A DNA stretch of 22,799 nucleotides from a virus: positions 1 through 22,799 of the IMG/VR virus record IMGVR_UViG_3300043469_001329, one strand, 5' to 3'. Both the position numbers and the translations under genes were made by a program. A model generated the notes under the pieces. That model was not told where the DNA came from. It made no database searches and worked only from the letters and a program-made list of their open reading frames with translations. Below are positions 4,829 through 11,621 of this stretch, piece by piece; within the stretch, counting starts at the first letter, position 1, and each line of letters opens with the position of its first letter.

Positions 4829-4856
4829 CTAAACAATGTTATAATTATCTTGTTAG
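4829..4856 (+). promoter_or_regulatory. Extended -10 promoter framed by an inverted repeat
   Basis: TGTTATAAT (TATAAT at 4840-4845) is an extended -10; no good -35 is visible. The -10 is centred in an imperfect inverted repeat, CTAAACAA (4829-4836) against TTGTTAG (4850-4856), one unpaired A. The predicted start lies near 4852, only about 10 bases before the ATG at 4862. The repeat may be an operator. Confidence 0.5.
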
Positions 4857-9592: not shown

Positions 9593-10321
9593 ATGAAAAA
9601 CATTGAAATATATAGGCTTGGCGATAAAAAGGTATTTGATATTGTACCACTAGACGTTAAGCGTTCTTGGATGGACCAAAGCCTGGATCGGGATGCATAC
9701 AAGTGCCTTCCGCTAAACATCGCTAACCAGTATGGATGGGCAGTTGTTTGTCCAGAAAACTTTTCGGTTTCTTGGTTTGGTGGCAATCGTGAGAGCGATG
9801 TTGAAGTTTTCTCAAGTGGGTCAGACCTGAATGATAAAAAAATTATTTCTCATTTTGGAGAAGGAACTTTCACAATTCAGTTAGACTTCATTGTAAAAAC
9901 ACCAGAAAATTATTCTACATACATACGTGGTATTCCAAATAAGATTGATTCCATATTGAAGCCATTGGATGCAATTGTAGAGACTGATTGGTTGCCATAT
10001 ACCTTTACTTACAACTTCAAGTTCGCAGAACCAGGCGTGGTTGAGTTTAAGAAGGGTGACTTGCTATTTTGCTTTTTTCCAATTGAAAGAAACTCTGTTG
10101 AAAATTTTGTTATAGTAGAAAAACCAATATCGGATAATCCAGAATTAAAAGATGACTATTCTAAGTTGTTGGAGAATAGACGTAACTCAGTTGCAAAAGA
10201 AAATGGAAAGCCATCATTTCAAAGGTTTTATAATACAACAGTTGCACCACACAAAAAATTTAATGTCAAAAACCACATTAAGCGGTTGATCTTTGGTGGC
10301 AAACCTGATACAATAGAATAA
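9593..10321 (+). CDS. DUF6065-like protein
   Basis: The 242-residue product matches my memory of the DUF6065 family: RSWMDQSLDRDAYKCLPLNIANQYGWAVVCP near residues 22-52, HFGEGTFTIQ near 84, and ETDWLPYTFTYNFKFAEPGVVEFKKGD near 129-155. No enzyme motif, signal peptide or membrane segment is seen. The biochemical function is unknown; relatives often lie in sugar or secondary-metabolite gene settings (my recollection, not checked). It begins 4 bases after tRNA-Asn with no clear SD, so translation may depend on tRNA processing. Its 3' end holds the tRNA-Asp promoter. Confidence 0.75.
   Translation: MKNIEIYRLGDKKVFDIVPLDVKRSWMDQSLDRDAYKCLPLNIANQYGWAVVCPENFSVSWFGGNRESDVEVFSSGSDLNDKKIISHFGEGTFTIQLDFIVKTPENYSTYIRGIPNKIDSILKPLDAIVETDWLPYTFTYNFKFAEPGVVEFKKGDLLFCFFPIERNSVENFVIVEKPISDNPELKDDYSKLLENRRNSVAKENGKPSFQRFYNTTVAPHKKFNVKNHIKRLIFGGKPDTIE
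10286..10314 (+). promoter_or_regulatory. Promoter for tRNA-Asp and downstream RNA
   Basis: TTGATC at 10286-10291, 17 bases and TACAAT at 10309-10314, with TG one base upstream of the -10. The -10 ends 10 bases before tRNA-Asp. The bases after it (AGAATAACAA) nearly match those after the tRNA-Asn -10 (TGAATAACAA). Confidence 0.65.
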
Positions 10322-10324
10322 CAA

Positions 10325-10398
10325 GGCTTCGTAGTTCAGTTGGTTAGAACGCCACCCTGTCACGGTGGAGGTCGTGGGTTCAAGTCCCATCGGAGTCG
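10325..10398 (+). tRNA. tRNA-Asp (anticodon GTC)
   Basis: Acceptor GGCTTCG/CGGAGTC (two wobble pairs), D arm GTTCAGTTGGTTAGAAC, anticodon stem CCACC/GGTGG with loop CTGTCAC, T arm GTGGG-TTCAAGT-CCCAT, discriminator G. CCA is not encoded. Confidence 0.95.
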
Positions 10399-10690
10399 CT
10401 ATAGGCTAATCACCTATACGTGTACAAGTGCACGTAAAAACTCAACACTTGTTGCTGTCCAGGCAGTAGATACTCTGGCGTGTAGGCAATCTCACGATAT
10501 AGGTTCGGAGTTGGTCACTCGTCTTAGGAAACGACCCAGGGATATAGATCTGATTAATCTGATATCCCACTAGGGATTGTATGGTAACTGGAAGCACTCC
10601 AGGTGAAGCCATGTCAAACGGTGCAAATCCGACAATCTCACTAATGGTTTCCATGCACCACTCTTCGGGTATAAGATAAAGCATGGACAC
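10399..10690 (+). ncRNA. Candidate structured RNA between tRNA-Asp and tRNA-Thr
   Basis: No plus-strand gene is convincing in these 292 bases, but local inverted repeats are dense. They include ATAGG/CCTAT (10401-10417); ACGTGTA/TGCACGT (10418-10435, one wobble); CCAG-AGT/ACT-CTGG (10459-10478); an 11-bp stem with one bulge, GGGATATAGAT/ATCTGATATCCC (10539-10568); GATTGT/ACAATC (10575-10637) enclosing ATGG/CCAT, CTGGA/TCCAG and CGG/CCG; and TCCATGC/GCATGGA (10650-10687). It lies downstream of the tRNA-Asp promoter and runs into tRNA-Thr, so it should be transcribed with them. It does not show the hallmarks I know of tmRNA, RNase P RNA, SRP RNA or group I introns. The alternative is a minus-strand gene (10442-10684). 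Confidence 0.45.
10442..10684 (-). CDS. Possible minus-strand small protein (alternative to structured RNA)
   Basis: An 80-residue frame starting at an ATG (or GTG at 10690, two residues longer), behind AAGGG supplied by the complement of the tRNA-Thr 5' end. The product (MLYLIPEEWCMETISEIVGF to the end TYIVRLPTRQSIYCLDSNKC) has reasonable composition but no family I recognise, no membrane segment and no minus-strand promoter that I can see. Open frames of this length arise by chance in this window. The strong hairpins inside it favour RNA. Both readings are kept because I cannot decide between them. Confidence 0.25.
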   Translation of the reverse strand: MLYLIPEEWCMETISEIVGFAPFDMASPGVLPVTIQSLVGYQINQIYIPGSFPKTSDQLRTYIVRLPTRQSIYCLDSNKC

Positions 10691-10763
10691 GCCCTTGTAA
10701 CTCAGTTGGTAGAGTGCGATACTTGTAATATCGAAGTCGCAGGTTCGAATCCTGTCGGGGGCT
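10691..10763 (+). tRNA. tRNA-Thr (anticodon TGT)
   Basis: Acceptor GCCCTTG/CGGGGGC, D arm ACTCAGTTGGTAGAGT, anticodon stem CGATA/TATCG with loop CTTGTAA, T arm GCAGG-TTCGAAT-CCTGT, discriminator T. CCA is not encoded. Unlike the other tRNA units it has no good promoter 10 bases upstream, so it is probably cut from the tRNA-Asp transcript. Confidence 0.94.
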
Positions 10764-10767
10764 CTAA

Positions 10768-10799: not shown

Positions 10800-11621
10800 A
10801 TGGCAAAAGCACAATTTCCAATCGACGGTAAACTTGGAGTAGATTTCAAGGCTACCTCACTAATGGGTATGAGAATTCACCCAGTAACAAAGAAGAAGAA
10901 GCACCACAACGGTACCGACATCTGGTCAAAGCACGAACCATGTTGGATTGAAGCACCGTATGATGGCAAGGTACTTGAGGCAAAGAAGTCAACTGCATCT
11001 GGCGGTGGCTTTGGTAACTACGTGATCTTGCTTCACAAGATTAACGGTAAAGACTACACGACTCTATACGCACACATGGGCGACGGAACTATCAAGGTTA
11101 AGAAGGGTCAGAAGGTTGAGGCAGGAACCCCTCTCGGCAAGATGGCTTCTACTGGCATGTCAACAGGCAAGCACCTACACTGGGAACTTCGCCTTGGCAA
11201 ACAACACATCTGGGATGCAAACGGCAAGAACTACATTGAGCCTATCGCATTCTTCAAGGCACTCATTGCACAGGAGAAGGCTATTGCCTCTGCTGCAGTG
11301 GTTGCCAAGGACGATGACCCTGTTGCCCCAGCACCGACACACGACGAGTCTGGAGCAGCAAAACTAGAGAAGCCAGCAGTTGTAAACCCTGTGGTTGACC
11401 CAAAGCCTGCAGCAGCAGTAAAGCCAGCACTAAAGGGAACCCTCAAGAAGGGTTCTAAGAATGGTCTTGTAACCTATCTTCAGAAGTCTCTTAAGGTTGT
11501 TGGAGATACTCCTGGAGTATTTGGTGAAAACACACACAAGGCAGTAGTTCTTCTTCAGAAGAGAACAAAACTTACCGCTGACGGCATCGTTGGTCCACTA
11601 ACCTGGGGGAAGATTAAGTAA
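10800..11621 (+). CDS. Endolysin: M23 peptidase plus peptidoglycan-binding domain
   Basis: The 273-residue product has no signal peptide. Residues 1-150 form an M23/LytM-type zinc endopeptidase, with His36 and Asp40 (HHNGTD), His92 (YAHM), and His125 and His127 (GKHLHWELR). A Pro/Ala linker spans about 165-210. Residues about 212-273 form a peptidoglycan-binding type 1 domain (VTYLQKSLKVV..GVFGENTHKAVVLLQK..LTADGIVGPLTWGKI). It would cut cross-bridges or stem peptides in host peptidoglycan and needs a holin for release; candidates are at 6733-7171 and 17167-17445. A tail-associated lysin is the alternative. It has its own promoter and strong SD and is coupled by TAATG to the next gene. Confidence 0.92.
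   Translation: MAKAQFPIDGKLGVDFKATSLMGMRIHPVTKKKKHHNGTDIWSKHEPCWIEAPYDGKVLEAKKSTASGGGFGNYVILLHKINGKDYTTLYAHMGDGTIKVKKGQKVEAGTPLGKMASTGMSTGKHLHWELRLGKQHIWDANGKNYIEPIAFFKALIAQEKAIASAAVVAKDDDPVAPAPTHDESGAAKLEKPAVVNPVVDPKPAAAVKPALKGTLKKGSKNGLVTYLQKSLKVVGDTPGVFGENTHKAVVLLQKRTKLTADGIVGPLTWGKIK

Follow-up and report, generated by a model that had tools for sequence, protein, structure and literature searches.

Structured RNA modules between the tRNA genes of a phage array

The tRNA-Asp/tRNA-Thr gap and its division into three modules

The window, i.e. the whole stretch of DNA analysed here and to which all coordinates refer, is a 22.8-kb virus record whose gene content identifies it as a phage. Its plus strand carries a tRNA-Asp(GTC) (10325..10399 according to ARAGORN; 67.4 bits with the Rfam tRNA model) and a tRNA-Thr(TGT) (10691..10764; 65.2 bits), confirming the two genes recognised by an earlier sequence-only reading of this region, and the gap between them measures 291 bases. 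According to Rfam, the tRNA-Asp ends with N73 at position 10398, C10399 being the first base beyond it. An endolysin-like gene with M23 peptidase and peptidoglycan-binding domains is located at 10800, downstream of tRNA-Thr. Upstream, the tRNA-Asn/tRNA-Asp gap is occupied by a gene for a DUF6065 protein (9593-10321; Pfam E 6e-59), and locus L004 has an insert of similar size in the same gap. A PA14-domain protein encoded at 4850 had no match in INPHARED, and ribonucleotide reductase was discarded as a marker of the host or phage family, being too widespread.

No promoter-like or terminator-like site was seen on the plus strand within the Asp-Thr gap, in agreement with the earlier suggestion that tRNA-Thr lacks a promoter of its own. 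A promoter-like sequence (TTGATC-17-TACAAT with TG) is present at 10286-10314, upstream of tRNA-Asp; such sites are equally frequent in shuffled sequences.

The stems previously named in the gap are all found at the positions given for them. Since the gap does not fold more stably than expected by chance (z = -1.31), such stems, spotted by eye, are no evidence by themselves. The folding energy of the largest module, module A, is likewise not beyond chance (z = -1.25), and it is therefore the comparative evidence that carries the case. For this purpose, 76 related IMG/VR loci were retrieved with the endolysin-like gene as query, many contigs being fragments, and the set of module A copies was enlarged by IMG/VR pattern scans. 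Searching the gap against Rfam gave no match at gathering scores, as expected from the earlier remark that no named family fits, and nothing convincing beyond the flanking tRNAs even at E-values up to 10.

The gap had been read as a single RNA of 292 nt. This candidate was rejected, as the gap consists of three separate modules that are found apart in relatives, i.e. module A (10399..10572), module E (10573..10640) and module D (10641..10690), all on the plus strand: A occurs without E in L023, and D alone stands between the Asp and Thr tRNAs in L009. A protein-coding gene on the minus strand (frame at 10442-10690) was rejected as well, because the frame is not kept among relatives: the segment matching 10442-10571 measures 119-131 nt in complete copies, with length differences that are mostly not multiples of three. 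The pattern named beforehand as speaking against a structured RNA, i.e. a kept minus-strand frame together with stems that do not covary, was not seen, as frame lengths vary and the stems do covary.

Conservation and secondary structure of module A

Module A is a 174-nt RNA backed by a covariance model (R1) and pair counts, its last four bases (ACTA, 10569-10572) forming the linker to E. Including the window, there are 17 distinct copies, one of them partial (L109), all from IMG/VR; in L023, L024, L053 and L074 the module each time stands behind a tRNA-Gly. The covariance model built from the 14 closer copies matched two loci outside its building set, L062 (E 1.2e-13) and L108 (E 1.3e-29). A had no blastn match among 50,697 phage records, and the only candidate for a cellular copy, obtained when bacterial and archaeal genomes were scanned with a pattern (L095, Acidimicrobiia), was dismissed as a chance match (E 0.43, 68 % GC). 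On the basis of these sequences, A is well supported as a new structured RNA family outside Rfam, an earlier description elsewhere than in openly licensed papers being possible.

In 11 copies, A shows an identity of 86-96 %, compared with 65-69 % between the tRNA-Thr of those arrays, where present, and that of the window. This difference fits strong constraint or the exchange of A as a unit; recent spread or exchange between phages, rather than function, could also account for the high identity.

Six helices, P1 to P6, were read off the alignment and then counted. Among the 14 closer copies, in a count that takes in the pairs of the kissing contact proposed below, 99.5 % of the cells are paired, compared with 27-40 % in slid controls, and seven pairs are changed on both sides. 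When L062 and L108 are added, 23 of the 37 pairs are double-changed (41 cells), a result reached by none of 500 shuffles, and the covariation score is 0.288, compared with at most 0.063 with the partners slid. The pair cells kept amount to 99 %, against 23-41 % when slid, although the slid control favours the structure because this was drawn with some of the counted sequences, L062 among them, in view. L108, found after the drawing, fits the structure except for the outermost pair of P1. The covariation that had been proposed as a check was thus found, and these compensatory changes among relatives bear out the idea of a structured RNA packed tightly between tRNAs.

P1 (TATAGG/CCTATA, 10400..10418; 99 % of cells paired) encloses the conserved loop CTAATCA (10406-10412) and shows G-U variants and one double change. 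All seven pairs of P2 (ACAAGTG/CACTTGT, 10424..10452) are double-changed among the copies, its sequence differing in L053, L074, L062 and L108 with the pairing intact; in L074, where the alignment is gapped, the strands GAGGAA/TTTCTC were paired by eye. P3 (CCAG/CTGG, 10459..10478) is paired in all cells, with two of its four pairs changed on both sides, and the same holds for four of the five pairs of P4 (AATCT/AGGTT, 10488..10505; loop CACGATAT, 10493-10500), the counterparts of which are GAAGT/ACTTC in L062 and GAGTC/GACTC in L108. P5 (GGTC/GACC, 10513..10536) is also 100 % paired, with GC/GU/AU and CG/UA as pair types. P6 (10539..10568) corresponds to the 11-bp stem of the sequence-only reading, in which GGGATATAGAT (10539-10549) pairs with ATCTGATATCCC (10557-10568) leaving one bulged G; its loop is CTGATTA (10550-10556), and 8 of its 11 pairs are double-changed.

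The loops of the two end hairpins may be joined by a kissing contact (10407..10556) between TAATCA (10407-10412) in P1 and TGATTA (10551-10556) in P6. They are complementary over six bases in 15 of the 16 complete copies, L024 having one mismatch, but as the loops are nearly invariant this contact is only a proposal. Approximately 0.2 % of random loop pairs match equally well, in a test devised after the complementarity had been seen. The minimum-energy fold favours a long-range helix, CCTATACGTG/CACGATATAGG, which competes with P1. Counted as a possible additional pairing alongside P1, its CGTG/CACG part reaches 90.6 % pairing, shows a single double change and fails in three copies.

Module packing and the repertoire of the arrays

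The spacing is the same in all 16 complete copies: A starts one base after N73 of the preceding tRNA, and precisely four bases separate the end of P6 from G1 of the element that follows, which is a tRNA-Asp, a tRNA-Gly, a tRNA-like module or E. Ordinary tRNAs directly follow A in seven loci (L023, L081, L082, L092, L093, L062 and L108). Since its upstream neighbour is a tRNA-Gly, a tRNA-Asn or a tRNA-Asp, A is not tied to one neighbour. The tRNA leaders at these loci contain few G; position -1 is T in 53 % and position -2 is A in 58 %.

In the arrays of the relatives, the modules A, B, C, D, E, TLS (tRNA-like), manA, G, H, I and J stand between Asn, Gly, Asp and Thr tRNAs in varying order, usually with 0-4 nt between neighbouring elements; C, G, H, I and J were defined by sequence similarity only. 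Like A, at least eight further RNA modules, manA (RF01745) among them, occupy different inter-tRNA slots and combinations in a cassette-like manner. For instance, D is found in the Asn-Gly, Met-Gly, Asn-Asp and Asp-Thr slots, manA in Asn-Gly, Gly-Asp and Asn-Asp arrays, and I in Asp-Thr and Thr-Ser.

Module E is a tRNA-like structure known from four copies. The pairing GATTGT (10575-10580)/ACAATC (10632-10637), seen as a stem of its own by the sequence-only reading, does exist, but is really part of an acceptor-like stem of 8 bp (10573-10580/10632-10639) that is paired in all four copies with three double-changed pairs. The outer strands read GGGATTGT/ACAATCTC, GGACTTGT/ACAAGTCT, AGGGTTGT/ACAACCCT and GGACTTGT/ACAAGTCC, and variation is nearly confined to this stem, the arms being identical save for one base. 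A long arm (10581-10612) is followed by a T-arm-like CGG-TGCAAAT-CCG (10619-10631) directly before the 3' acceptor strand, and by an N73-like A10640. Neither ARAGORN nor the Rfam tRNA model calls E a tRNA. With its acceptor-like stem and adjoining T-arm, it looks like a reduced tRNA; its T-stem has only 3 bp instead of the full 5 bp and there is no D-arm, so that RNase P may cut E poorly. The T-loop form TGCAAAT/TGCAACT of E and the L053 relative is also that of plant-virus tRNA-like structures of the TYMV type, whose Rfam model reads GUGCAACUCCC, a resemblance that is local only and without an Rfam match in E.

Module D folds as an H-type pseudoknot and is 98 % identical in L009. A first stem (TGGT 10645-10648/ACCA 10657-10660; CGGT/ACCG in some copies) is combined with a second one formed by its loop, TCCATGC (10650-10656), and GCATGGA (10681-10687), this being the second of the previously named stems to stand unchanged, with an inner hairpin (TCTT 10662-10665/AAGA 10673-10676). 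The second stem, of 6-8 pairs, is kept in 21 of the 22 tRNA-array copies of the first locus set, the exception being one mismatch in L087, despite clearly different sequences (GCCTA, GCCCAT, CCATGC, GCTTGC, GTCCAT, GCCAGC and GTCTAAC, with their partners), i.e. the stems covary among relatives. Two other matches to the D pattern in that set fall outside arrays; a wider scan yielded further copies, and every high-scoring one adjoins tRNAs.

Module B, of approximately 171 nt, stands between tRNA-Asp and tRNA-Thr in L023 (2987-3158), L006 (3721-3891), L063 (2392-2564) and L092 (592-760); 17 of its 47 predicted pairs are changed on both sides, and it has no Rfam match. A blastn search of cultured phages gave only a weak 36-base match for B and no match for H. 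A hairpin loop of the CTGA type is common to B and A. Modules G (L083 2044-2240), H (L006 3196-3385), I (L079 690-766), J (L087 2646-2714) and M (L063 2132-2317) are likewise without an Rfam match, and all of these except M recur at other loci. The TLS module (L053 191-260, L083 1974-2043, L079 297-365, L009 3523-3589 and L074 3487-3553) has an acceptor, a D-arm and a T-arm, with an abnormal anticodon arm; ARAGORN labels some copies '???(ga)'.

Possible processing and roles of the modules

We consider the chances to be somewhat better than even that these modules are trans-acting non-coding phage RNAs, co-transcribed within a tRNA operon and cut at their ends by tRNA-processing enzymes. The modules, their structures, their packing and their presence in different slots are seen directly in the arrays; co-transcription, cleavage, stability and trans action of A are what we infer from the sequences. 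The fixed packing of A together with the leader composition points to an array transcribed as a single precursor, in which one cut would come from 3'-end processing of the preceding tRNA and the other, downstream, from RNase P, whose action on such a transcript is plausible. A 3'-trimming enzyme, taken to be of the RNase Z type because CCA is not encoded, would cut behind tRNA-Asp and create the 5' end of A, and RNase P would create its 3' end by cutting at the 5' end of E. This would set free a compact RNA of approximately 174 nt, its end hairpins possibly joined by the kissing contact. As a tRNA-like module follows A wherever a true tRNA does not, E may mainly be a processing signal, i.e. 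a stand-in for a tRNA, and D would be released ahead of tRNA-Thr as a separate small pseudoknot. The slot independence and conservation of A suggest action in trans, the likeliest way being that its conserved loops bind a host protein, the ribosome or a defence component.

Alternatively, the modules may be cis-acting structured spacers that separate tRNAs, prevent mispairing of acceptor stems and guide processing, without any role after release; the array could even be dispensable spacer RNA. Their exact fit between tRNAs, the plain short hairpin or D that many relatives have in the same slot, and the variation of E almost solely in its acceptor stem are all consistent with spacers. Yet 174 bases with invariant loops are not needed for spacing, given the 0-4 nt between tRNAs in other arrays, and A stays highly identical while the adjoining tRNAs diverge, which makes this explanation unlikely in our view, albeit one to be taken seriously. 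A would suit a decoy for host nucleases that attack tRNAs, with tRNA-like modules absorbing the nuclease and A protecting or presenting them, insofar as it precedes tRNA-like modules with odd anticodon regions in several phages; as A itself is unlike a tRNA and ordinary tRNAs directly follow it in seven loci, we hold this to be quite improbable.

Equally little probability is given to a riboswitch-like RNA that regulates a downstream gene in cis, be it the endolysin gene at 10800 or a different one. Although manA, labelled as cis-regulatory (PMC2864571), shares these arrays, A precedes tRNAs rather than a reading frame, tRNA-Thr lies between it and the endolysin gene, and the same gene also follows arrays without A. 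A selfish mobile element inserting behind tRNA genes, such as an intron remnant, a ribozyme or a homing cassette, would explain why A and E together look like a clean insertion behind tRNA-Asp in comparison with L009, and other phage tRNA arrays do have endonuclease genes within or close to them. However, of 39 records searched, the 10 that match contain A only once each; it has no reading frame, Rfam detects neither a group I intron nor a ribozyme, and both flanking tRNAs are intact, so that this origin appears very improbable.

Going beyond the favoured reading of trans-acting RNAs, one might speculate that these phages maintain interchangeable trans-acting RNAs as a library that is reshuffled, with tRNA-like structures marking where host tRNA enzymes excise them, and exchange them under host pressure like the anti-defence genes of other phages; we regard this as possible, though on balance doubtful. 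In any case, the well-supported family A and two smaller families, E and D, are added to the short list of structured phage RNAs, together with a modular organisation in which many unrelated RNA modules occupy changing tRNA slots and a concrete idea of how RNAs without promoters of their own might obtain their ends.

The tRNA cluster of phage T4 gives rise to the stable RNAs C and D (species 1 and 2), whose function is unknown, and A, likened to them by description, also belongs to a phage tRNA cluster. Like A, the GOLLD and ROOL RNAs are borne by phages or prophages and often found near tRNA islands; their function is unknown and many GOLLD RNAs exceed 800 nt (PMC12286853). A is much smaller (174 nt) and matches neither Rfam covariance model at the gathering score. 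RNase P also cleaves RNAs other than tRNAs where these carry tRNA-like structures, phage-induced RNAs and MALAT1 being examples; in the latter, the cut at the adjoining tRNA-like structure (mascRNA) makes the 3' end of the non-coding RNA (PMC4919922). E would play this part for A, but MALAT1 is eukaryotic, much longer and not homologous, its weak sub-threshold match in the window lying only in tRNA-Asp itself.

The surroundings of A are shared by manA, which fills inter-tRNA slots of the same arrays but differs in sequence and fold, the gap search giving no match of A to the manA covariance model. It lies between tRNAs in six arrays (L006 3463-3644, L053 683-863, L084 657-838, L092 90-271, L096 3481-3663 and L107 1716-1930), usually within a few bases of the gap ends; these six are whatever the searches returned and therefore no survey of manA. 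Two of them are cultured phages: in Rhodococcus phage Francesca, manA begins 3 bases after tRNA-Met and stops 1 base short of tRNA-Lys, and in cyanophage S-CREM1 it is located between tRNA-Leu and tRNA-Asn. This suggests that the manA of phages may be an inter-tRNA RNA, despite its cis-regulatory label. The tRNA array of S-CREM1 also contains wcaG and abiF RNAs (L107 1246-1343 and 2032-2068), the latter RNA between tRNA-Asn and tRNA-Gly.
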